From: an uncultured Clostridia bacterium
GTDB taxonomy: Bacteria > Bacillota > Clostridia > Christensenellales > CAG-917
Reading direction: 5' to 3'
DNA length: 36,232 nucleotides
Assembly: GCA_947624885.1 (NCBI GenBank)
Contig: CANQMD010000006.1
Coordinates: forward strand, 1 to 36,232
Position numbers and translations under genes: made by a program. The notes under the pieces were generated by a model. That model was not told the origin of the DNA. It saw only the letters and a program-made list of their open reading frames with translations, and searched no databases. This document shows, piece by piece, positions 5,905-25,056 of the stretch. Positions within the stretch are counted from its first letter, which is position 1. Every line of letters starts with the position of its first letter.

Positions 5905-5933
5905 ATTTTAACATATATATTTGCGCATTTCAA
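5905..5933 (-). promoter_or_regulatory. Promoter of the PAP2 gene
   Basis: Minus strand: -35 TTGAAA (5933-5928), 17-nt spacer, -10 TAAAAT (5910-5905), about 42 nt from the ATG. A TATAAT at 5899-5894 is an alternative -10 without a good -35. Confidence 0.6.
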
Positions 5934-6007: not shown

Positions 6008-6036
6008 TTGATATCTTGGGCAAAATGATGTATACT
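6008..6036 (+). promoter_or_regulatory. Promoter of a non-coding transcript
   Basis: -35 TTGATA (6008-6013), exactly 17 nt, -10 TATACT (6031-6036). No ribosome binding site or convincing gene follows; the next element is an RNA ending in a strong terminator at 6257-6286. Confidence 0.75.
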
Positions 6037-6042
6037 TATGAC

Positions 6043-6286
6043 AGAAACAAAGTTTCCTGCAACGTGCGTGATAGCGCTCTATTTTGAACCACAATTTCTA
6101 TACGGGATTGCGCGTCCGAACAAAATGCGGAGATGTCAGGCCTCAACAGATTCAGTGGAAGACAGAAACCGCACGGCAGCATTTACCCACCCTGCTTATA
6201 CAGCGGGTTTATAAAATGGCGCTACACGGCGACGCGGGACAGTCGCAAGACGCAGACCCCACTCGGTTGAGTGGGGCCCTTTTTTT
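6043..6286 (+). ncRNA. Structured non-coding RNA (~240 nt), candidate 6S RNA
   Basis: The transcript is bounded by a good promoter and a strong terminator. It can fold into one long irregular rod: CCTGC near the 5' end pairs with GCGGG near the 3' end, CGTG with CACG, TAGCGC with GCGCTA, ATTTT with AAAAT, and GAACC with GGGTTT. Inside, a further arm pairs TGCGG with CCGCA and TGTC with GACA. The TTTCCTGC...GTG start and the matching 3' strand resemble the closing stem of 6S RNA, which binds the housekeeping RNA polymerase. It lacks the conserved motifs of tmRNA, RNase P RNA and SRP RNA. The size is larger than most 6S RNAs (180-200 nt), so identity is tentative; another regulatory RNA is possible. 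The open reading frames inside it look accidental. Confidence 0.55.
6257..6286 (+). terminator. Intrinsic terminator of the non-coding RNA
   Basis: CCCCACTC (6257-6264), loop GGTT, GAGTGGGG (6269-6276), then CCC and seven T. Very stable and canonical. Confidence 0.9.
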
Positions 6287-6491: not shown

Positions 6492-6533
6492 AAAACAAAC
6501 CTATCTTGAAATGATTCAAGATAGGTTTGTTTT
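6492..6533 (-). terminator. Terminator of tRNA-Glu (symmetrical)
   Basis: Perfect 19-bp stem: 6492-6510 pairs with 6515-6533 around the loop ATGA. It ends in TTTT on both strands. It lies directly at the 3' end of the minus-strand tRNA and could also stop transcription entering from the left. Confidence 0.9.
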
Positions 6534-6607
6534 GGTACCCCCATAGGGAATCGAACCCTAGATTCCGCCGTGAGAGGGCGACGTCTTAACCGCTTGACCA
6601 TGAGGGC
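6533..6607 (-). tRNA. tRNA-Glu (anticodon CUC)
   Basis: 75 nt on the minus strand with CCA encoded. Acceptor strands GCCCTCA and TGGGGGT (G1 pairs with U72 as a wobble), D arm GTC-AAGCGGTTA-AGAC, anticodon stem TCGCC/GGCGG with loop CTCTCAC (anticodon CTC), T arm TAGGG-TTCGATT-CCCTA, discriminator A. The D-arm and anticodon-arm sequence is typical of bacterial tRNA-Glu. The leader contains 70-bp tandem repeats that begin at its 5' end. Confidence 0.92.
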
Positions 6608-6838
6608 ATGAGGTACGATGAGTTTTGATGAGTGCAGGTTTTACACTTGCGCGAGTACCGCTGCTCCGAAGGAGGGGCATGAGGTACGATTGGTTTTGGT
6701 TGCGTAGGTTTTACACTTGCGCGAGTACCGCTGCTCCGAAGGAGGGGCATGAGGTACGATGAGTTTTGGTTGCGCAGGTTTTACGCTTGCACGAGTACCG
6801 CTTGCTCCGAAGGAGGGCATGAGGTACGATGAGTTTTG
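6606..6838. repeat. 70-bp tandem repeat array abutting tRNA-Glu (three copies plus a partial)
   Basis: Each unit begins GCATGAGGTACGAT and ends ...CTCCGAAGGAGG. Unit starts are at 6606, 6677, 6747 and 6817 (periods 71, 70, 70). The fourth copy breaks off around 6838. Each unit carries the short hairpin CTCC-GAA-GGAG. The array is in the 5' leader of tRNA-Glu. Open frames across it are repetitive and have no ribosome binding site. Confidence 0.88.
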
Positions 6839-7011: not shown

Positions 7012-7381
7012 TTACTCTGCCAATTCAATACTCCATTGAGCAGTACCATTTTGATAATCATCTGTTGTGATGTTTACGTTGTAATGATAACCGGGCTTCA
7101 ATGTGATTGTAAGCTGTTGATCCTCTCCAATTCCTGACGAATAAACTTGTTTCCAAATGCAACCAGAATCATCGTCGGAATCTACAACAAGCGTTGCATT
7201 GCCCTCAACGAGTGCTGTCAAAGTGATTTGCACTTCTTCCTCAACTGTCAACGTCCACCATTGACCTTTTTCATAATCTGCGATTTCGGAAGTATGTTCG
7301 CCGAGGAGTTGCTCAAGCGTGATAGTTGTAGCAGACTCTTTGCTGTCGCTACCTTGGGGAAGTTCATCAGTACCCCCCCCC
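7012..7381 (-). CDS. Out-of-frame C-terminal domain of the InlB-repeat lipoprotein
   Basis: An open frame on the minus strand with coding character ends at TAA 7014-7012, directly before the terminator. It has no start signal of its own; the nearest ATG in frame (7464) lies inside the upstream gene. Removing one G from the G9 tract at 7373-7381 joins it in frame to the large gene as ...STSTGGGTDELPQGS..., matching the linker GTGGGTDKPG used earlier in the same protein. The segment (~120 residues) is acidic and beta-rich (EKGQWWTLTVEEEVQITLTA, then YNVNITTDDYQNGTAQWSIE), resembling pre-peptidase C-terminal or carbohydrate-binding-like sandwich domains; I cannot name the family. It is either a phase-variable extension or the result of a homopolymer error. 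Confidence 0.7.
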
Positions 7382-10300
7382 TGTACTCGTGCTGCCTTCG
7401 CCAAAGGTATACTCTTGTCCGTCGACGCTAATTGTGATGTTGAGGTTGCCATAGCCTGCGCCATAGTCGGGATCTTCGCCTATCCATTCGCCTTTAAATT
7501 GCTGACCGTCAATGGTGATGGTCAGGTTTTTGCCGGAGAACTCAAGGGTGCCCTCTTTGGAGGATCCCATTTCTTCACCATAATACACCGTTATGGTTTT
7601 GGTCGCAAAGTCAATAGCCAGCGTAGTGCCGTAATCTGCTGTGAAGCAGCGCCATGTGGTAAGATATTGAGCAATAAACACCATATTGCCTGTAAGCGTG
7701 AAGCTGTTGGAATAATCGCAATCGTACCAATCAGTATCCTCGCCACTTGGATCTTCGCCTTCAAGAACGAAACCTGCAAACCAATAATACCATTCCTTAG
7801 GCTCAAAACCGAACGTAGAGAAGTCTGCGGGGAGGAATACGGTCTTGTTGAGTTTGCTTGCTTCAAACTTTTCGACATAGTCGTCGCCTGTGGCGTTGTC
7901 GCCGGGTTTGTAGGTCACGGTGTAGCCGTTGAACTTCTCCTCATAAGCGCCGTCGTACTTGCCGTCGGGTGTGCCCGAAACAGAAAGGCTGCCGTCCTCA
8001 TCGCTTTGATAGATCGTCCAATCGGAATAAGCGTCTTTGCCAACATAGACGTTCCACTCAAGCACATCACTGTGTTCGCTGAACTCATACTCGAAAGTCA
8101 CGGTTTCAGAGCCATCGGAGAACGTTGCGTTCCAACCTTCGATTGTGAGGGTGAGTTTCTGTGTATTGGAATCAGTGTACTCGCCGTCGGGAAGGGGCTC
8201 AGCAGTTTGGGGGTCACCCGGTTTGTCAGTACCCCCCCCCGTTCCTGAATTTTCAGGAGCGAGGGTGCTGGTGCGAGGATTGTCCGCGGAGGTGTCGCCG
8301 ATCATCAATGTGCCGTCGTCAAAGATCGCAATCGAGAAGCTGATGCCTGTGGCATTGCAATAGTAATAATATTGCACTTCGTGTCCCTCGTGCGTTCCAT
8401 TAAACCAATTTGTTTTCTGGCTGGTGATCGGGAAAGTTTCCGTCTTTTCAGCCGCATCGCCAATGGAATAAGTGACGGTGACTTTGTTTGTCAAGCAGTT
8501 GGTGGCAATGATCAATTTGGTGATCTTGTACTCGCCCAAAGAATTGCTCCACGTTGCCTCGCCTGTGTAAGTGACCTCGATGGGGGTTACGCACTCCGCA
8601 ATAAATTTGCCGTCCTGATCGCCGATCTCAACAGAGCCGTCTTCATAGACTGCCAAAGTGAATTTGCTGCTTGTGCTGTAAGTCACGTCATACAGATATT
8701 TGAGGGTCGCCGTATTGCTTGTGCCTTCAAGCGCCGTCTTTGCGGATTTTGCGAGAGTTGCAAGTCTGTCGCTGTATGTTGACGATCCAAAGTACTTGTA
8801 ATCAATGATCGCATATCCCGCCTCTTTTGAAGTGTTGATGGATATCCTTGTGATTACATCACTGTTGGGAAGTGTGGCAGACGCAAACAAGTCCTTCATG
8901 TCGGGATCTTCCACAAGATAGTTCTCGCTACCATACTTGCCGGGATTGCATGAGTCGGTCTTGATGTATCCTTCTCCCAACAGGTTAAACTTGAAGGAGA
9001 ATGCGTCGCTATCTTCGCCATAGGTGCCAGACACATAGTATGCCTTTTCGCCGATTTGGCAATAAGTACCCTCATAGGTTTCAGTGCCGTTGACAAGTTT
9101 GAAACTCCAATCCTCGGCGATCGTGATCGTGCCATAGTTGCCCGTGTTTTTGTAATCGCCCGCAGCAATTTGCGTTTCGTCCGTCTTGGCATATTCGCCG
9201 TTCAGCGATGCTGTTTCGCACGCTGCATTCAGTTTACTGTCAGTAAGCGTGAATGTGTAGTTGTAATAGAGTTTTGCGGGTTGTCCGTTGCCCCACTCAT
9301 ACTCAGGATTGCCAACGCTGTATTGCGCGATGTACTGATTTGTAGCAATTTGATAGTAGTTGATCTCGGTGAAATTGTCGCCGTCCGTCACATACAGTTT
9401 GCCGTTTGCGGTGAAACCGAACTTGTATTCCTGATCCTCGCAGGTGTAGAAACCGCTGAGAGGAGCAGTGATCTCGTCCTTGGCGAGAGCGGAGCCAAAT
9501 TCATATGCTTCATAGTTCAAGTAAATGACGGTGTTGATCTGTTCCTTCTCGATGTCGATGGTGCCCTTCGCGTTCGCAACGGATTGCGTGACAGGCTTGG
9601 CGTCGGTCGAATTGAAGGTGATGGTCATTGTGATGTTGCTGCCGTCAAGCGTGAATGACAATTCATATCCGTCAAAGTCGCCGCTGTTGCTTGCAAGGTG
9701 CAGGTGCAACAATTTGCCGCCGCCCTTTGCAGAAGCCGTGAGGAGGTCGGAATAGATTGCCGTGAAGGTGATCTCGCTTTCCTCATTGAGTTTCAGCTTT
9801 TCGCCCGCTCTGATGGTCTTTGTTTCCTCGCCCGCTTGATACTGCCAATACAGGAAGTAGGGATAGTTGTTCTTCTTTGTAAAGGTAGGATCTGGGAGCG
9901 TGTACTCGGTGTAAGGATCTTGAGGATCGTCCGCCATCGTGCCCTCGCCGCCTTCGTTGGTCGCGAACTTGATGTTGACCTTGGTCGCCTCGTCCATCCA
10001 CTTCGCATCGAAGGTGACGTTTGCGTCAATTTGGTTGGTGGAGTAGGTTTCGCCTATGCGCCACACTTTTTGAGTTTCGTCGCCCTCAACCGTCCAACCA
10101 ACAAGTTTTTTACCTTCGTTGGAGAAGCCTGTTTCGTCGGGAAGCGTGCAGCTGCCGCTCAATTTGCCGAACGTTTTGGGTGCGGGAGCGTCGCCTTGTG
10201 CGCCGTCGCCAAGGTTGAAGGAGAAGTAATGCCTGAAGATCGCCTCAAGAGTGTAGTCCTCCATGATCTCGGTGTCAAAATCGAATTCGTCCGTCGTGCC

Positions 10301-13839: not shown

Positions 13840-16800
13840 ATGAGAACAAAAATGACAGGGAACAACGGCAATGTGAAGATCAGGGCGCTGAGGCTGATCG
13901 CGATCGGGCTGTGCTTTGCAGTGGTGTTTGCTTTGACGTTGGCGTTTGCGGGGCAATCGCTGAAAGTGGCGGAAGCTACATACAGTTCAAGCGGCGCGAC
14001 AGAGAGTGTGATCTTCAGTGATAAGGATAAACAGTCAGGTAATCAGGATCAAAAGGCTACCGCGGCGATCATTGGCGATACGGGGGACATACCCGCGACA
14101 AAATTCGGCACCGGTGAGAACACTCTGCCGACCACGAGCAGTCCTTCGGGCTTCCCCGGCGCAGGAAACAATTCCACCTGGTATTTCACAGAAACTTTTG
14201 ATACCGTTTCAGCCTCAGTTGGCACTCAATCTGTGGCAAAGGGCGACAATAACGGCGATACGAACACTTTTGTGTCTGAGGGCGGAAAAGACTATTGGAA
14301 ATTCGGATACCAAAAAGCTAACGCAGCGGCGAACACAGGGTGGGCAATATCATATCAATTGCCGTCTTTCGTCATGAAATTGGCGCAGTCGTCTTATTTT
14401 ACGGTGACGGTATGTTCATCATTTGGATATCTGCATCTTCCTACATATAGTTATGCTAGTCAGCATCGTACCATGTTTGGAACGATATATACATTCGATT
14501 ATTTGAGCGACGACATTGCGGACGCTGGCTATGTGAGGGACAATTATGCATCTGGGTCCCTTCCCGCCACTGCCACAAGTAAACAAATTCAAGGAGATGT
14601 GCTAAACGACGCCCAGACATATGGTGAGAGCAAGACAAAAACAAGCGAATTGACGGTTACAAATCAAAAATACCTGAATATAGGTGTGGGCGGTCAAACT
14701 TGGCACATGGGCGGAGAACTTACGGGTAGTCGCGCTAAATATTGCGAATTGGGCACGCTAAAAGTATACTTTAAGATAACTATCAATGATTTTTCAAGCA
14801 GGAGTAAAAGCGAAACTTTCAATGACGGCGGAGCGCCGGTGTGGGCGAACGACTATGGATTGAAGGCAGGAACCAAGGAAGATTACTCCGTGCCGTACAG
14901 ACCGGCAGCCGAGGACGGAACGCCTCAGCAAGGGACGGACGACAACGAGTGGACGGTTTGGGATTTGGAACAATTTGGAGGAACGGCATACAGAAACTAC
15001 CCGTCCGATACGGCAACGAGGTTGATGTCGTATCAAGGTACTCCAATAAATATAAATGACAACCCAACGGGCGTAGGAAACTACTACAAATACACGCAAT
15101 TGTCGGTCATAGACTCATACAACTACGGCTCCACAGACGGTTTCAGCAGGGACGCGATGGACAACATGGAGAATTGGACGACCGCAAAGAACACGATGGG
15201 GCTTTTCGGAAAATATTTGACCTCGTCCGCAACATCGTCAAGCAATTTGGATTGGGGGAATGCAACTCAAAAATATGCAAGCGGATTGAAAACGTTGCAA
15301 TTGGAGTTTACAAACTCGGCGACGGAAGAGGAAGGGTCTACAACAATACAGCTGTACTCGAATGCATCAACCAACCCTTATGACTTTTATATTGACGCGG
15401 GTGCGACTTTGGCATACATCAGAATAAACTTTATTGACAGTTACGGATATATAAAAATAGGAATTTATGCGAAAACGAACTTCAGCCTTACGCTGACGGT
15501 GACGGACTTTGGCGACAGATCGCTTGTCAAGACGATAGAATACGGCGGGATAGACACACAGCAACCGGGCGCGCCGAAGCTGGAGGGCGTGGACGACAAC
15601 GACAGCTTGAGAGTTGTGCAGACAAGCACGCATACGGGAAGCTGGCATACCTCAAACAACCTGGAAATGATGTTGACGACGGCGAGCAATGACAATGTGA
15701 TCGCGCCAAACCTGTACTTCATCGCGGTGGGCAAGACGGAAACAGGAAATGATATCCCCTCGGATTTTGCAGACTACAATTGGGCGAGCGAGGCATGGAA
15801 GGTCGTGGCGATACTCACCAATGACAACAAGGATGACGGCTTGACGGTGAGATATAACTTTGAGAACGGGCAATTCTCCGTGGGAGGAAAGACGATAGAC
15901 GGGTACGGCGGAGATACGACCGGAATGGGAAAATACCGATTCAGAGTGTACTCATTCGATATGGCGGGAAATGCTGGGACCCCGACGGACTTTTTTGTCA
16001 ACGTGGACTATGAAAAGCCGAACTACAACGCCAAGATCACGTATGGCGAAGAAGGGAAGGAGGAGTTGACCCCCGCAGAGAACGGCAAAAAGTGGATAAA
16101 TAAGACGGGATTGAAGATCAACATAATGCCGACGATAAACGGCGAGGAAAGATTTAACGCGTCGGGCAATACGCTGGCGTTTGAGCACAGCGGCGTGACA
16201 GCGTTTGTTTCCGCCTCCAACGAATCCTCATCTTTTGGGTATTATTCGTTTGTGGGAATGAGCGCCGGGTTTGTAGCGGCGGGCATGGGCACAGATAACA
16301 AGGTGAGGTATAAGCTGAACGCGACGGACGAGTCGATCACCGCGGAATCGGGCAAGACATACTGGCTGATCGTGGAGATAGCCAAAGAGGGCGAAGGCGG
16401 ATTTATTTTGCATATAGAAGAGGGGGACGATAGCGGTCCGAACGGGACGGAGCCCCTTTCGTTTGCGTGGGAAGTGACGTTTACGATCCTGCCCAGCACA
16501 TACAACGGGACAGCAAGTTTTGACGAAGAAGGAAATACGTCGCCGGATTGGAAGAGCGGCATGCATATCAACATAGACAGGAAGGCTCCGAGCGTCGGAA
16601 ACGTCGCGCTGTCGGCGGATGAGGCGGCGGAGATAGGCGTTGATGATGTGGACGGCAAATTTTCGGCAAGCCTCGAGGACTTGAAGGCGATGACTCCGAG
16701 CCAAAGACAATGGTACTACGAGAGATACGTCGGCGCGGAACTTACGCTGAAAGCGGACGAGATGTGGGACAACTACTCCTCCGGATTCAACGTGTACTTC

Positions 16801-19800
16801 GGCGTGAAGGCGCTGGGGACGCTTGACGAACTTGCGGAGTTTGAGAAAAAAGACTTTTTGAACAAATACGCGACGTTGTCGGCGGCAGAAATTTTGGAAT
16901 ATCTGGACAGATTCACCAAAAAGTCGGGCGACGACTTCAGCGGCCTGGATCTGTCGCTGGACAGCGACGCGCAGGGCGTGGATCTGAGATACGGCGGCGA
17001 CAAGGAAAGCACGCACACGGCGGGCTTGAGGCTGGTGTACGTGTGGGTGACGGACCAGGCGGGGAACTGCTCCGAGCCGAGTCTGTTCAGAATTTTTGCG
17101 GACTGGACATCATACACGGTGAGAGCGAACGTTGCCTCGTCGGATAAGTTGGCGAAAAATACCGCGAGCATACGCTTGACGGATACGCTGACCGTGCAAC
17201 GCGGCGAATCTTTGCCGATGGAGTTGACCGTGGCGAACGGATTTGTGCCATACAGACTGTCGCTTGGCGCAAATTGCGACTTGATGACAAACTACACCTC
17301 GCAGGCGGGCAACTTTGCCGCAGCATCAGAGGCGTATGAGGGATTGATCACCGTGACTCCGTCAGAGGTGGACAGCGGCTGGGGCATCGGCTTGCAATTC
17401 ACGTTTGACAAGGAGGACTTCAACGACATAACCACCGAGGAGAGAGAACTGCAATTCAGACATAGGCAGGTCGTGATCTTCTCGGCGGGCGAGCAGAACT
17501 CCGTGACGTACAAGGCGGACAGAGTGAACGCGGACGATCTGACGATCAACATCCAATCCGACGCGGACGAAAAGCTGGTCGCGGCGATAAGAGCGGCGAT
17601 GAAGCTGCGCTTTGTGGAAGACTTCGAGGAGCAGGAATATACGCTGTATACAGATAGGGAGAATCCGCGCCTCGCAACGAGAGAGAGCGGAAACGCGTAT
17701 GTGGACAGCGCGGGAAATCCGCTGCCGTTTGCCGCGGTGAATACGGGCGCGTATCAGGCGTATCTGTATATAGACAAGTACGACGAGGCGTTTGTGGAGG
17801 ACGGCGTGACATACGACGAGGACGGAAACAGAACGTTTGCGCCCGCAAGTCGCATCGGTATCACCGTGGAGCAAAGACAGCTGTACGTCGTGCCCGTTGA
17901 AAAGACGGTGGTGTACGGCGATGAGATAGCGATGGAGTTCGGGCTGTTTGCGACAAGCGATCCCGCAGAGGACGAGGAAGAATGGAAACTCGCGGAAGGC
18001 GACGGCGAACTTTCAGGCAAGATCAAGCTGGACGGCGTGGACGGCTGGTCGGCCGACGAGAATGGCAAATATATAGGCGCTGCAAAGATAGACGCGGGCA
18101 CGTACAGGATCATCGTGGACGGAGAGGCGTTCATGATAGACGGCGAGTACGGATATAACTACGCGGTCAACTTTGTCGCGAACAAGACGTTCACAATAGA
18201 GCGCAGAGAGGTGGAGATCGTCATTCTGGGAGATAGCAAACAGTTTGGCGACGCGGATCCGCTGTTTAAGTTTGGCGTGGACGCGACTCAATTTGGGGAA
18301 GGCGAAGACATCCTCGCCGAGATTTTCCCGTCGTTTGATACGGACGAAGATCAAGCTGTGGGAGATAAGACCTACAAGGCGTATTTCAGCGCGGCGATCA
18401 CGCGCGTTGCGGGCGAAAACGTCGGCAAGTACGACTTTGAGGAGATAGACCTCGAATATGTCGGCGCAAACAAGAACTACGCGCTGAAGGCGGTGGAGCC
18501 CCAAGAAAAACAACAATTTGAGATAACCAAGAGAACGGTGGAGATCGCCGTCGCGGGGTCTACGTCGCTGCAGGCGGACGGAATTTTTGAAAAAGAATCC
18601 GCAAATATCGGCTTCAGATTGGTCTACGCAAAGGACGAGATCGAAGTGGTGAAGCAGGAGATCCAAAAGTTGATCGAGAGCGGACTGCTGACGATAGGCG
18701 ATCTTGCCGAGAGCCTGCCAGAGGACGAGAACTACTCCAAGACGGAACTGTATAACGTGTCGCTGAACGCGGACCTCGCGGACGGGCAGAACGTCACGAT
18801 CGTGCTGAGCAGCGCGGATAACGGCGACAAGTACTTTGTGTACTACGCGCAAAAGGACGTGGTGGTCATTGCCGTGAAAGCGGGCGCAAAGTTCGAGGCG
18901 ACGTTCGGCGAGAAGATAAGCATAAACTATAGGGATAATAAAGCGAAATTCGACGTGACGAAGAACGGCGAAGAGATGAACTACGAGTCGATCGCGTGGA
19001 CGTTGGAGGTCGAGGGTCACGGCGCGGACGATATCCTGAACGTGGGTACGTATACCGTGAAGATCACGGCGCAACACTTCTACAAGCAGTACGGCGAAGA
19101 GGAAACAGGCGTGAAATATATCGCGGAGCCTCTGCAGGTGTCCGTGGCGCCCGCAAAGATAGCGGTGAAGCCGAAATTTGCCGCGACGACAAAACAGTAC
19201 GGCGACGACGACAGCGCGTACGGCATCTCGTGGAAGATCGTGAGCGTGAACGGCCAACCTATCGAGGAAGGCGGGAACTACGCAGGCGTGGATTACGCGA
19301 CCATACGCGGATATGTCGAAAAACAGTATAACAAGAACTTCTACTACGTCAGAATGGCGGATAAGGACGGGACAAAGTCGCCCGCGACGATTTCCGACAG
19401 CGTGACGAACAGCCTGCACCTCACCAAGGACGGCGCAAAATATGTCGCGGCGCTGATCGGCGAGGCGAAACAGTGCGAAAATCAAAACTTCAGCATTGAC
19501 CCGAGCAAACAGTCCGAGGACGCGCTGGATATAAGCCCAAGACCTATCCAACTTGACTTGGCAAAATTTGTCGGCGTTTCAAAGGACTACGACGGAAATA
19601 ACCTCGCGTACTACACGGGGAATACGCTGCTTGCCGCGCTGAACATCGCGGGCGTGTACGAGGCGTACGACATCGCGAGCCAGCTGCTGTTCAACGACAG
19701 CGCGGAACTGCAATTCGAGGCGAGATACTCCGAGATGGGATCACCGGCGGTGCCGCTGACGATCGTCACGATCACGTTTGCAAAGCTGAGTCTTGTGGGC

Positions 19801-22800
19801 GAGAAGGCGGAAAACTACGTCGTGAGCAAGCTGGTCAACTCCGCAAATAACGGCGCGGAAGTTTCGGGCGAGGCGCTCGCGAAGGACGGAGAGAAAGAAA
19901 TAGAGTCGCTTGAGGGCGTGACGATCACGATCAGGTTTACGGATAACGCGACGGCGGACCTCGACGGCGAATACGAGCAATATACCATATATATACGCGC
20001 GGGCGCGTTGGGCGTGAGAAGAGAGGGCAGCGTGTTTGTCACAAAGGTGTACGACGGCAAGACTACCTTCTCGGCGGATAACGTGTCGGTGGACGCGCAA
20101 TTCGCAGCCAATACCGAGGGCAGCGCAAGTACGTTTTTGCTGTCGACCGCGAAGATCACGGTGCTGAGCGAACTGGACGGCAACTATGTCAACGTGACCG
20201 GTGATGAAAACCAAGGCACGAAGTTTATCAACCTGGCGCTGTTTTTCACCTTTGACGACATCGACCCCGAGCAGATCACGATCGCGAACGGAAATCCCGA
20301 TTACGCGGCGGTGTATCAGGACAGCGGCGTGAAGGTGGAAGTCAGAACTGTTGGCGGGCAGAAGGGCATTTTGGTGTCCATCGCGGACTTTGCGATCACC
20401 GTCAATAAGAGAGAGATCAACGCGCAATCGTTTGGAACGCTTAAGGCGGTGGATCGCGAATACAACGCGCAGACGAGAGTCGCGATCGAGTTTACGTTTG
20501 CGGACGGCGCGGTGGTGAGCGGCGACGACGTGGGCCTTGCCCTGGAGGGAATCGCGAGCGATAAGAACGCGACGAAGGATAAGCCGCATACGGTCACCGT
20601 GGACAAGGAACACTCGCTGGTGAGAAACGCGAACTACGCGCTGAACGTGGACTCCATCAACGAGGTATATGCGGGCGAGAGGGCGCTGACTGTCAACATC
20701 AAGAAGGCGCAGTTGCTGCCGAACATCATATTTGCAGACAAGATCTACAACGCGGAAGCGGAGTTGCTTGAAAAGGACTTCTCATGGCTGAAGACGGCGA
20801 CGTTCAGATCCGTCAAATACTTCGAACAGCTGGCGGAGGAGTTGTCGTATCTAACAATCGAAAATACGGCGACGATCCTGCTGTCGAAGGACGGAAAAGT
20901 GAATTGCAACGTCGTACTCGTCGACGATACGGCGGTGAAACACTCCGTGATCGTGAGAGGGATTAAGCTGAAAGTTACGGACGCGACGAAGATAGACCTT
21001 GGCAACTACGAACTTGCGGGGACTTGCTATAGGGGCGGCGCGAAGGTGGAGGAGGCTCCGACGCTTGAGGACGGGCTGGAACTTGACGACCTCGAGATGA
21101 CAGAAGCGATCCTGCTTGATAAGGCTCCGCTGCAGATCATGGACACCAACGTCAAGGTGCACGACAAGATCTACGACGGCACGAGGAACGCGGATATCGA
21201 CGTTGCTCTGCCTGAGGATACTCCCGCAAATGACAGAGAATATATCTTTATCACCGCTACGGGCGAGTTTACGTCGCCAAACGCGACGGAGTCCGCTACG
21301 GCGATCATAAAGACGGGATCCGCAATTTTGCAACTCACTCAAAAGGGTAAGGACGAAAAGAAGGACCAAGAAGGGCTGCTGAACAACTACTACATCAAGT
21401 ATACGAGCGCGAGATTTACGGGAAGCGCCATAAAACAGCGCCCCGTCAGCGCTACGGTCAGCCTGGGCGAGAGAGCGTATAACGCGCTGGAGTCGGTGAG
21501 TACGTCGCTGATCACGTATACGTTTGACGACAGCATGCTGCCTGCGGACAGAACTTCGTATAACGTGCAGACGAAGGGCGGCGCGTTCTATATGGATAAG
21601 AACGTCAATCGCAAAGGCGACGATATCCTCAACAAACTCGGCGCGGTGTATAACCCCGAACTTAAGGACAGGAACAGCGTGAACAGCAGCAACTACCGCC
21701 TGCTTGCCGCATACGACAAGGAACAGAGCACAGGAAATCTGTACGCGGTGCTGCTTGAGAACGGGAAGTTTATGCTCGCGGCGGAGTACCTCGAAAGCAA
21801 GAGCGCGGAAGGCGCCTCGTACGCGATGGTCGCGACGGACGGCGCGGATACTCCCGCTCAGGACGAGGAGCCGCTGAAGGTCAAGAGTTTCTACTACGAC
21901 TTGCCGAGCAGCGCGAAAGCGATAGAAAAGAGCAACGAGGAGGCGCACAGCAGAGCGCAGGGCGCGGAATCGGACGGCACGATGTGCATAATCGGATATG
22001 TCGAGATAAGCGGCAAGGGATATTGGCTGGTCACAGAGGAGTACGCGGAAAGCGTGAAGGACACCAACCCCGACGACGTGACGACGCTTGACAAGGCGTT
22101 GACGTATATCCACGGCGAAGGCAAGATCACGCCGCTGTCGTTGTCGATACCTACGGGCGCGGTCACTCCCAAGGCGGACACGCAAGCCTTCAAAAAACAA
22201 TATGACGGAACAAGAAAGTTCTTTGGAGTTGCGGGTACAGACTATACGTTTGACACAAGCGCATTTATAGGAAAGAAAGCCGGCGACGACGTGTATTTGG
22301 AAAATATCCAAGCGGAGTTTAACAGCGCGGACACAAACGCCTCGAGAGTGGTGTTTACGGGCACGCTGGCGGGCAAAGATAAGGACAACTACACGCTGAA
22401 GGAAGGCAGCGTCGCCTCGGCGAACGCGAAGATCGTCAAGAGAACGATCACCGCGACGCTTCAGGACGGACAGATGACCTTCGGCACGCTGGTGGGCAAC
22501 GTCATGGGCGAGATAAAATACTCGCTGGGAAGCGCGGAGATCCAAGTTGAGGGGAACAACTTCTACATCAATTACTACGACTACTTGAGGACGCTGGGAT
22601 TCCTGTCGGAAGGCACAACTCCGAAGCCCGAGGACGTGAAATACGTCAACGAACTCGCGACGGGCAATCTGTACGACTTTGCAAACGGGGAATTTGTGCC
22701 GCATCCCAATTTGGAAAGCGCGGACAGCTTTACGTACATCAAGCTGAGCGGCGACTTCCTGCAACTGCCGAGAGCAAAGGCGAGTTTTGCAACCTCTACG

Positions 22801-25056
22801 CCAAACGTGGGCGCGGAGGGCAGATACTACCTGACGGGCGGCAACGCGACGAACTTCGAGTTCGAAGCAAAATATACGGGCAACGGCGTTTACAGCACAA
22901 CGCTGAAGACCAATCTGTCAAAGCTGGAAGTGATCCCCAAAGACGTGTACGTGGCGGCAACGCGCAACGACGCGGAAGTGGTGTACGGCGGCATCATCCC
23001 AAGCGGCAGCGGAAGCAACAGCATCGCATTCTATGACGAGAACGGTCTGCCGTACTCGTTTGCCTCGGGCGAATCGTACAACAGCCTGTTTGTCGTGGGC
23101 GGCGTGGACTACGGCCCGCAAATGAAGTGGATGGAGTACGATCGCGAACTCAATACGGAAAAACCGGCGACTTCGTTTACAACCCCCGACAATATGTCGT
23201 CGACATCTTTGGCGTATGTCGCAAGATTTGTGATGTTTGAGGGCGCGGACTACAGCCTTGGAACTTTGCCCGGCGGCAAGACGATGAACGGCGCGATAAA
23301 GAACTACCGCTTCCACTTCGGGTTTGTGTCACACGAACAGCGCGAGGACGGAGGATATGACTACTATATCAACTTCAGCACGAAAGCAGGCGATCATGCC
23401 GCGGAGGGAGATCTGCCGACGGACGGCAGCTTCTACAGAGCGTATACATCTACGCTGACGATCGTCAAACCCGTGATCGAGGGCGTCAACGTGCTGGACG
23501 ATCAGTCGTTTGAATACGACGGACTTGACAAGCTGCCGAGCATTGTCACCGGCCTCAAGGCGGGCGATACGGTGGCGATGATAATCTCGGATACCACCAC
23601 GGCTACGTCAGCCGTCAACGCAAAGACTTACGTCGGCAAGATCAAAGTCACGCGCAAGACCGTCTGGAACGAGAGCGATACTACAGGCGTGGAGAGCGAA
23701 TGGATATCGGAAAACAGCGTGAAATTGACGATCACTCCCGCAACGCCCAACCTTACGACGAAGGACGACTCGAAAATATACGACGGCATCCCGTACACCT
23801 ACGACTACACCTCAAGCGGCGGAATGGTCACGGGCTTGAAAGTGTCGCTGCAGGCGGGTGACGCAAACTTGTACTACGAGAAGCTGGTGGGCAGCACATA
23901 CTACCGCGCTTACGGCTTGGACGAGAGTGGAAATCAGGTGCCGCTGCTGCACGATAGCGACGGGTACTACTATATCGGAGCGCGCGGGGAGAGTCTGCCT
24001 TGGACGGGCGAAACCTATGCGTACAGCACGGACTATCAGGACGGCGCGAGGACGGGCGTTGTGAACGTCGGAACGTACAGGATAGTGATAGAACTGACAG
24101 GCGCGTTTGAAGAACATCAACAGGGCAACTTCAAAGCCGTCACCGTGTACGCGTACTTCACAATCACCGCCAGACCCGTGGCGATCACAAGCCTCGCGGT
24201 CAACGGCAAGGGACACAACAACGTCACGGACGAGTCCGGCGCATATGTGTTTAAGGAAATGTTCGGCGCGGCCGGGACGGAACAATTTGTCGTTACGTAC
24301 AATGTCGAAACGCTGGGGCTGCCCGCTAACGCCGAGAGCGCCAAACTCGACAAAAACAGCACCGTCGTCGAAGGGCTGGAAGGCGTTAAGTCCGCGGGTA
24401 GATACTACTTCACCGTGAAAATCAAGGACAACAATGTCAATAGCGCCAACTACACGCTGTCCGGCGCAACGGGCGTGCTGGAACTCACTCAAAAGGATTT
24501 CCTGTCCGCGGGCGGAAAGGGCGAAACCGCAAACGACGTGCTGTCTTTCAAGGATAGCGAAGAGGGCGTGGTGGCGAACAGACTGGTCGTCAGACACATC
24601 AAGAGCACCGGCGGTACGGGCGCGGACCTCGACATGTGGAAGAGAGTGGAAACCTATATGCCGGCAATAAGCGACAACGCGAAACTCGCGGGTATTGTGC
24701 AGGTGCAACTATATAACGGCAACACCAAGGTCAATATCTCGGGCAGAACGGTGGAACTGACTATAGCGTTGCCCGAAAACGTTGACGAAAACCTCGAAAA
24801 TGTCGTGGTGTACGTTAAGAACGCTCAGGGCGGTCTGAGTAAGCTGAGCGAGGACGACTTCTTCCTGCACGACGGGAGCATCACCTTTGAAACCGATTAT
24901 CTCGGCGAGATCGTGTTTGTCAACGTCGCTAGGTTTGAGATCAACCCCTACCTGCTGTGGACGGCGGTCGCGGTGGGAGGCTTGATCGTCGCATTTGTGC
25001 TGTGGGTGCTGATCGCATTCATCGTGCGCAAAGCGAAGATGCCAAAACTCATCTGA
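13840..25056 (+). CDS. Giant secreted YDG/MBG-repeat surface protein with C-terminal membrane anchor (3738 aa)
   Basis: ATG 13840 follows GGGTGG by 4-5 nt. Residues 1-46 are a long signal peptide (basic start, hydrophobic core LIAIGLCFAVVFALTLAF, likely cut after VAEA). Residues ~47-560 form an N-terminal region of different base composition. Residues ~560-1100 are Ig-like or bacterial cadherin-like modules (DMAGNAG, TDQAGNCSEP). From ~1340 to ~3440 come MBG-type modules (VVYGDE ~1351, KQFGDAD ~1466, KQYGDDD ~1786, VVYGG ~3047) and YDG-type modules (KDYDGNN ~1914, KVYDGKT ~2068, REYNAQT ~2203, KIYDGTR ~2442, KQYDGTR ~2785, FEYDG ~3225, KIYDGIP ~3311). A distinct beta domain covers ~3570-3700. 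Residues ~3703-3728 are one transmembrane helix followed by RKAKMPKLI; no LPXTG motif is present. Role inferred: long adhesin or stalk. It stands alone between repeat clusters and has its own promoter and terminator. Confidence 0.93.
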   Translation: MRTKMTGNNGNVKIRALRLIAIGLCFAVVFALTLAFAGQSLKVAEATYSSSGATESVIFSDKDKQSGNQDQKATAAIIGDTGDIPATKFGTGENTLPTTSSPSGFPGAGNNSTWYFTETFDTVSASVGTQSVAKGDNNGDTNTFVSEGGKDYWKFGYQKANAAANTGWAISYQLPSFVMKLAQSSYFTVTVCSSFGYLHLPTYSYASQHRTMFGTIYTFDYLSDDIADAGYVRDNYASGSLPATATSKQIQGDVLNDAQTYGESKTKTSELTVTNQKYLNIGVGGQTWHMGGELTGSRAKYCELGTLKVYFKITINDFSSRSKSETFNDGGAPVWANDYGLKAGTKEDYSVPYRPAAEDGTPQQGTDDNEWTVWDLEQFGGTAYRNYPSDTATRLMSYQGTPININDNPTGVGNYYKYTQLSVIDSYNYGSTDGFSRDAMDNMENWTTAKNTMGLFGKYLTSSATSSSNLDWGNATQKYASGLKTLQLEFTNSATEEEGSTTIQLYSNASTNPYDFYIDAGATLAYIRINFIDSYGYIKIGIYAKTNFSLTLTVTDFGDRSLVKTIEYGGIDTQQPGAPKLEGVDDNDSLRVVQTSTHTGSWHTSNNLEMMLTTASNDNVIAPNLYFIAVGKTETGNDIPSDFADYNWASEAWKVVAILTNDNKDDGLTVRYNFENGQFSVGGKTIDGYGGDTTGMGKYRFRVYSFDMAGNAGTPTDFFVNVDYEKPNYNAKITYGEEGKEELTPAENGKKWINKTGLKINIMPTINGEERFNASGNTLAFEHSGVTAFVSASNESSSFGYYSFVGMSAGFVAAGMGTDNKVRYKLNATDESITAESGKTYWLIVEIAKEGEGGFILHIEEGDDSGPNGTEPLSFAWEVTFTILPSTYNGTASFDEEGNTSPDWKSGMHINIDRKAPSVGNVALSADEAAEIGVDDVDGKFSASLEDLKAMTPSQRQWYYERYVGAELTLKADEMWDNYSSGFNVYFGVKALGTLDELAEFEKKDFLNKYATLSAAEILEYLDRFTKKSGDDFSGLDLSLDSDAQGVDLRYGGDKESTHTAGLRLVYVWVTDQAGNCSEPSLFRIFADWTSYTVRANVASSDKLAKNTASIRLTDTLTVQRGESLPMELTVANGFVPYRLSLGANCDLMTNYTSQAGNFAAASEAYEGLITVTPSEVDSGWGIGLQFTFDKEDFNDITTEERELQFRHRQVVIFSAGEQNSVTYKADRVNADDLTINIQSDADEKLVAAIRAAMKLRFVEDFEEQEYTLYTDRENPRLATRESGNAYVDSAGNPLPFAAVNTGAYQAYLYIDKYDEAFVEDGVTYDEDGNRTFAPASRIGITVEQRQLYVVPVEKTVVYGDEIAMEFGLFATSDPAEDEEEWKLAEGDGELSGKIKLDGVDGWSADENGKYIGAAKIDAGTYRIIVDGEAFMIDGEYGYNYAVNFVANKTFTIERREVEIVILGDSKQFGDADPLFKFGVDATQFGEGEDILAEIFPSFDTDEDQAVGDKTYKAYFSAAITRVAGENVGKYDFEEIDLEYVGANKNYALKAVEPQEKQQFEITKRTVEIAVAGSTSLQADGIFEKESANIGFRLVYAKDEIEVVKQEIQKLIESGLLTIGDLAESLPEDENYSKTELYNVSLNADLADGQNVTIVLSSADNGDKYFVYYAQKDVVVIAVKAGAKFEATFGEKISINYRDNKAKFDVTKNGEEMNYESIAWTLEVEGHGADDILNVGTYTVKITAQHFYKQYGEEETGVKYIAEPLQVSVAPAKIAVKPKFAATTKQYGDDDSAYGISWKIVSVNGQPIEEGGNYAGVDYATIRGYVEKQYNKNFYYVRMADKDGTKSPATISDSVTNSLHLTKDGAKYVAALIGEAKQCENQNFSIDPSKQSEDALDISPRPIQLDLAKFVGVSKDYDGNNLAYYTGNTLLAALNIAGVYEAYDIASQLLFNDSAELQFEARYSEMGSPAVPLTIVTITFAKLSLVGEKAENYVVSKLVNSANNGAEVSGEALAKDGEKEIESLEGVTITIRFTDNATADLDGEYEQYTIYIRAGALGVRREGSVFVTKVYDGKTTFSADNVSVDAQFAANTEGSASTFLLSTAKITVLSELDGNYVNVTGDENQGTKFINLALFFTFDDIDPEQITIANGNPDYAAVYQDSGVKVEVRTVGGQKGILVSIADFAITVNKREINAQSFGTLKAVDREYNAQTRVAIEFTFADGAVVSGDDVGLALEGIASDKNATKDKPHTVTVDKEHSLVRNANYALNVDSINEVYAGERALTVNIKKAQLLPNIIFADKIYNAEAELLEKDFSWLKTATFRSVKYFEQLAEELSYLTIENTATILLSKDGKVNCNVVLVDDTAVKHSVIVRGIKLKVTDATKIDLGNYELAGTCYRGGAKVEEAPTLEDGLELDDLEMTEAILLDKAPLQIMDTNVKVHDKIYDGTRNADIDVALPEDTPANDREYIFITATGEFTSPNATESATAIIKTGSAILQLTQKGKDEKKDQEGLLNNYYIKYTSARFTGSAIKQRPVSATVSLGERAYNALESVSTSLITYTFDDSMLPADRTSYNVQTKGGAFYMDKNVNRKGDDILNKLGAVYNPELKDRNSVNSSNYRLLAAYDKEQSTGNLYAVLLENGKFMLAAEYLESKSAEGASYAMVATDGADTPAQDEEPLKVKSFYYDLPSSAKAIEKSNEEAHSRAQGAESDGTMCIIGYVEISGKGYWLVTEEYAESVKDTNPDDVTTLDKALTYIHGEGKITPLSLSIPTGAVTPKADTQAFKKQYDGTRKFFGVAGTDYTFDTSAFIGKKAGDDVYLENIQAEFNSADTNASRVVFTGTLAGKDKDNYTLKEGSVASANAKIVKRTITATLQDGQMTFGTLVGNVMGEIKYSLGSAEIQVEGNNFYINYYDYLRTLGFLSEGTTPKPEDVKYVNELATGNLYDFANGEFVPHPNLESADSFTYIKLSGDFLQLPRAKASFATSTPNVGAEGRYYLTGGNATNFEFEAKYTGNGVYSTTLKTNLSKLEVIPKDVYVAATRNDAEVVYGGIIPSGSGSNSIAFYDENGLPYSFASGESYNSLFVVGGVDYGPQMKWMEYDRELNTEKPATSFTTPDNMSSTSLAYVARFVMFEGADYSLGTLPGGKTMNGAIKNYRFHFGFVSHEQREDGGYDYYINFSTKAGDHAAEGDLPTDGSFYRAYTSTLTIVKPVIEGVNVLDDQSFEYDGLDKLPSIVTGLKAGDTVAMIISDTTTATSAVNAKTYVGKIKVTRKTVWNESDTTGVESEWISENSVKLTITPATPNLTTKDDSKIYDGIPYTYDYTSSGGMVTGLKVSLQAGDANLYYEKLVGSTYYRAYGLDESGNQVPLLHDSDGYYYIGARGESLPWTGETYAYSTDYQDGARTGVVNVGTYRIVIELTGAFEEHQQGNFKAVTVYAYFTITARPVAITSLAVNGKGHNNVTDESGAYVFKEMFGAAGTEQFVVTYNVETLGLPANAESAKLDKNSTVVEGLEGVKSAGRYYFTVKIKDNNVNSANYTLSGATGVLELTQKDFLSAGGKGETANDVLSFKDSEEGVVANRLVVRHIKSTGGTGADLDMWKRVETYMPAISDNAKLAGIVQVQLYNGNTKVNISGRTVELTIALPENVDENLENVVVYVKNAQGGLSKLSEDDFFLHDGSITFETDYLGEIVFVNVARFEINPYLLWTAVAVGGLIVAFVLWVLIAFIVRKAKMPKLI

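Follow-up and report, generated by a model that had tools for sequence, protein, structure and literature searches.

Between two listed open reading frames (ORFs), one ending at 5914 and the next starting at 6641, the window (the whole stretch of DNA that was analysed, 36,232 nt) carries a locus at 6043-6286 within which no ORF of at least 80 aa was found, in agreement with an earlier reading made from the letters alone (hereafter the sequence-only reading), which had seen no gene there. This locus is almost certainly the single 6S RNA (ssrS) gene of this Clostridia genome, with a predicted transcript of about 244 nt and a 6S body of about 190 nt that adopts a rod fold. The following features were assigned:

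6008-6013, + strand: -35 element TTGATA, its TTG conserved in orthologues, 17 nt from the -10 element
6031-6036, + strand: -10 element TATACT, bringing the promoter to 10/12 consensus matches
6051-6244, + strand: 6S RNA body (RF00013 positions 1-187 of 187; also matched by model R2, see below)
6055-6077, + strand: closing stem, 5' strand, pairing with 6219-6239
6082-6090, + strand: bubble-adjacent helix (P2-like), 5' strand, pairing with 6206-6215; likely pRNA template
6091-6103, + strand: central bubble, 5' side (RF00013 match, orthologue alignment, RNAalifold)
6104-6188, + strand: apical arm (three pairs, 6104-6106/6186-6188, plus inner helices)
6189-6205, + strand: central bubble, 3' side, with a small predicted hairpin (6191-6196/6202-6207)
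6206-6215, + strand: bubble-adjacent helix (P2-like), 3' strand (RF00013 alignment and pairing analysis)
6219-6239, + strand: closing stem, 3' strand, pairing with 6055-6077
6257-6286, + strand: intrinsic terminator (stem 6257-6276, then CCC and seven T at 6280-6286)
6533-6607, - strand: tRNA-Glu(CTC), the next feature after the terminator

Elsewhere in the window, the gene of a 1825-aa lipoprotein-like surface protein (ORF 12844-7367) contains two tracts of nine G on its coding strand (-), at 7373-7381 and 8232-8240. The frame ends just past the first of these, whereas a different register stays open as far as 7012, and this tract could be either length-variable (phase-variable) or an assembly error. 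A repetitive ORF of 3738 aa at 13840-25056 (+ strand), with a signal-like segment at its N-terminus and a membrane-like one at its C-terminus, was judged by eye to encode a giant surface protein.

The covariance search with RF00013 (6S RNA), which the sequence-only reading had proposed as a check, returned a full-length match at 6051-6244 (model positions 1-187 of 187; 36.9 bits; E 5.9e-6 in the 36,232-nt stretch), and a search of the entire draft genome gave no match besides this one (E 4.1e-6). This score lies 9.5 bits below the RF00013 gathering cut-off of 46.4 bits, which is a database rule and no biological feature, and the match is therefore sub-threshold, though statistically clear. Accordingly, a Rfam scan of the window at gathering cut-offs reported a tRNA alone and no 6S RNA, so that annotation at the gathering threshold overlooks the 6S gene. 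Among the other Rfam matches in the region, ClpQY_promoter coincides with the terminator hairpin, and this match as well as those to MS2, the L2-Alphaproteobacteria leader and eiav_FSE were far below their cut-offs (E 0.14-4.7) and were attributed to chance. With the same RF00013 model, 6S RNA was found in five of 14 control genomes (four of these above cut-off) and, at E <= 0.1, in 68 of 100 relatives, 47 of the 100 being above cut-off; within the genus of the window 11 of 20 genomes gave a match, none of the 20 above cut-off. At E <= 0.01, the model returned nothing in three (L014, L015, L018) of eight loci of undoubted orthologues.

A DNA similarity search located the RNA in 17 of the 40 genomes examined, its own included, comprising 15 of the 20 genomes of the genus and two of four other family members. 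One orthologue from another genus (G023) was found at the same place by DNA similarity and by RF00013, with 53.5 bits, above cut-off. As an independent test, a covariance model (R2) was built exclusively from 15 family members outside the genus of the window, all of them above the RF00013 cut-off. In the window's genome R2 matched exactly 6051-6244 with 137.2 bits and E 5.7e-30, a rough value given the short calibration of the model, and had no other match. A genus model (R1) revealed 6S RNA in 15 of 20 genomes of the genus; the window itself is part of this model, and its R1 score of 208.5 bits was for that reason left out of the evidence. The remaining five genus genomes (G008, G009, G013, G014 and G018, drafts 62-95% complete) gave no match by RF00013, DNA similarity or R1, likely owing to gaps in the draft assemblies, with loss as a further possibility.

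The apical arm (6104-6188) carries the conserved segment AUGUCAGGCCUC and the mostly conserved UCAGUGGAAGACAG. A search for exact copies of these segments, with the loop allowed to vary, hit 51 contigs from named genomes, almost all of them MAGs of Clostridia/Bacillota, with Sellimonas caecigallum (Lachnospiraceae) as the one named species. A Rfam scan covering 18 of these 51 loci placed RF00013 above cut-off in 12, while L090, L094, L107, L110, L114 and L116 gave no RF00013 match above threshold. The 6S RNA of S. caecigallum (L106) has identical apical motif segments, but differs from that of the window in its higher RF00013 score (56.2 bits, above cut-off). The inner arm, which the sequence-only reading had taken as a poor fit to 6S RNA, is thus the normal 6S apical arm, common to Lachnospiraceae RNAs above the Rfam cut-off. 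The same reading had left the choice between a divergent 6S RNA and a new family. A new rod-shaped family merely resembling 6S RNA could explain why the score falls under a curated cut-off and why the gathering scan of the window yields only a tRNA; however, it would lack the homology to a known RNA family that is found here, and it is at odds with the smooth series of orthologues joining the window to RNAs above cut-off, with the score given by the independent model R2 and with the apical motif shared with Lachnospiraceae 6S RNAs. This alternative is consequently considered highly improbable, and of the two earlier options 6S RNA has held, on the full-length RF00013 match and on R2.

In the excerpt of PMC8876501, 6S RNA is described as having a body of about 200 nt and usually one gene per genome. 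Both agree with the locus: 6051-6244 measures 194 nt, the aligned part is 175-193 nt long in 17 sequences, and RF00013 and R2 each have a single match in the draft assembly, which is 95% complete. The length of 244 nt had earlier been held against 6S identity; about 8 nt of it are leader, and linker and terminator together make up another 42 nt or so. Since this extra length lies outside the 6S body, that doubt falls, and the interval 6043-6286 is better read as a primary transcript in which leader and terminator flank a narrower 6S body. A relative in the same order (G059) presents two 6S RNA matches above cut-off (G059:C126:3124-3327 and G059:C134:16138-16340). Two 6S RNAs, 6S-1 and 6S-2, are known in B. 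subtilis.

The well-spaced promoter and the terminator described by the sequence-only reading were both recovered, and from the former, transcription is expected to start near 6043. Promoters with at least 9/12 consensus matches were present in 15 of 17 orthologues, 3-16 nt upstream of the aligned RNA start, whereas 20 rounds with shuffled flanks gave a mean of 1.15 and at most 3 of 17. A terminator was found downstream in 16 of 17 (shuffled flanks: mean 1.25, maximum 3). The exceptions are L015 and L016, whose promoters reach 8/12, and again L016 for the terminator. The stem sequences of the terminators differ among species and are unrelated, indicating that function, and not the letters, has been conserved. 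Promoter, structured RNA and terminator in succession would also be expected of a cis-acting leader, be it a riboswitch or an attenuator, that controls a gene downstream by using the terminator as a switch. Such a leader was rejected, as in the window no co-directional (+ strand) gene lies close behind the terminator, the next feature being the tRNA-Glu on the opposite strand; the near-constant terminator with its unrelated stems and the RF00013 match likewise argue against it, leaving it only a minimal probability.

In 12 of the 26 loci that were scanned, a tRNA-Glu(CTC) gene lies close to the 6S RNA, mostly downstream (besides the window L014, L016, L017, L018, L024, L030, L049 and L051-L054). 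Since the loci offer little flanking sequence (often some 1.5 kb per side) and one of the tRNAs is 2.7 kb distant, this synteny is kept as a side note. Beside the tRNA-Glu, 6604-6838 contains a 70-bp unit repeated 3.3 times in tandem, an array present at a single place in the genome.

Folded alone, the RNA of the window has a minimum free energy of -77.6 kcal/mol (z -2.12), and six of 200 shuffles fold equally well; the opposite strand folds better than the + strand (z -2.73). Single-sequence folding was therefore rejected as proof of structure, being too weak and not strand-specific. The long-range pairing proposed by the sequence-only reading is present, although the fold of the single sequence is merely modestly above chance and the support is carried by comparative data. 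In an alignment of 17 orthologue sequences (A1), a rod of 50 pairs was scored. Paired bases occupy 93.1% of the cells, and in 16 of the 50 pairs both partners have changed, compared to a mean of 6.1 in shuffled alignments; ten of these 16 fall in the closing stem, which has 19 pairs. The pairings are thus kept among homologues, so that one of the two refuting outcomes named by the sequence-only reading, homologues without these pairings, did not arise. The covariation score of 0.188 was reached by none of 500 shuffles (0.118 when shuffled), and slid versions of the structure scored at most 0.086, a comparison in which the tested structure is favoured since it derives partly from the window's own fold. 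RNAalifold, run on A1 without the drawn-up structure, gave 42 pairs, including 14 with double changes. Covariation thereby backs a rod consisting of closing stem, central bubble and apical arm. On the other hand, a measure of further pair types in A1 was not above shuffles (331 of 500 reached its value), the helix 6082-6090/6206-6215 has no compensatory changes among the 17 sequences, and helix 4 (6107-6111/6179-6183) is paired in merely 75% of the cells. On the 3' side of the bubble, a hairpin is predicted in 16 of 17 orthologues at -5.4 kcal/mol or lower, and is weak in L013 (-2.0). The conservation of promoter, terminator and pairing across the genus also bears on the idea that this 6S copy has decayed or fallen silent, for which the sub-threshold score is the sole favourable point; together with the single copy in the genome, it makes decay extremely unlikely.

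For this 6S RNA gene, homology, a conserved structure and its own promoter and terminator are directly supported. The RNA resembles RF00013 in its full-length match, body size, closing stem, central bubble, apical arm and stand-alone gene, but adds the closing-stem pairing 6072-6077/6219-6224, where the RF00013 alignment is unpaired. Ms1 RNA of Actinobacteria is, in the excerpt of PMC9130861, likewise a polymerase-binding sRNA structurally related to 6S RNA, but it is actinobacterial and core-binding, whereas the RNA of the window matches RF00013 and has its relatives in Clostridia. According to the excerpt of PMC8876501, 6S RNA mimics an open promoter and binds the active site of the sigma-A/sigma-70 holoenzyme, and is released when a pRNA is copied from the 5' side of the bubble. 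By homology, transcription and processing, polymerase binding and pRNA synthesis may be presumed at this locus as well. The housekeeping-type promoter would drive a transcript of about 244 nt ending at the intrinsic terminator, and the 6S body of about 190 nt would fold as the rod described above. This rod would act as an open-promoter mimic bound by RNA polymerase with the housekeeping sigma factor, which would then free the 6S RNA by transcribing a short pRNA from the 5' side of the bubble. Judging from its position, the pRNA should be complementary to about 6080-6093. For Clostridium acetobutylicum, the excerpt of PMC3879012 reports strong expression of 6S RNA and several Northern blot bands. 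B. subtilis 6S-1 is described in the same portion of PMC8876501 as a rod with a small 3'-bubble hairpin already formed in the free RNA, like the one predicted in the window; the likeness rests on that description. A more speculative and rather unlikely proposal is a lineage variant whose 3'-bubble hairpin (6191-6196/6202-6207) competes with the bubble-adjacent helix (6089-6090/6206-6207) for the same two G bases, so that the tuning of release might differ from that of 6S-1.

Literature searches on 6S RNA, Firmicutes and Clostridia brought up no title on this lineage, and none joining 6S RNA with Christensenellales. The gene is an ordinary, somewhat diverged 6S RNA gene that is overlooked by annotation using Rfam cut-offs; the label "atypical" given earlier applies to its sub-threshold Rfam score and not otherwise. 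The significance of the locus beyond annotation is little. For uncultured Clostridia, the RF00013 seed could gain from the alignment made here, as under the Rfam cut-off 6S RNA may seem absent from these organisms though it is present.
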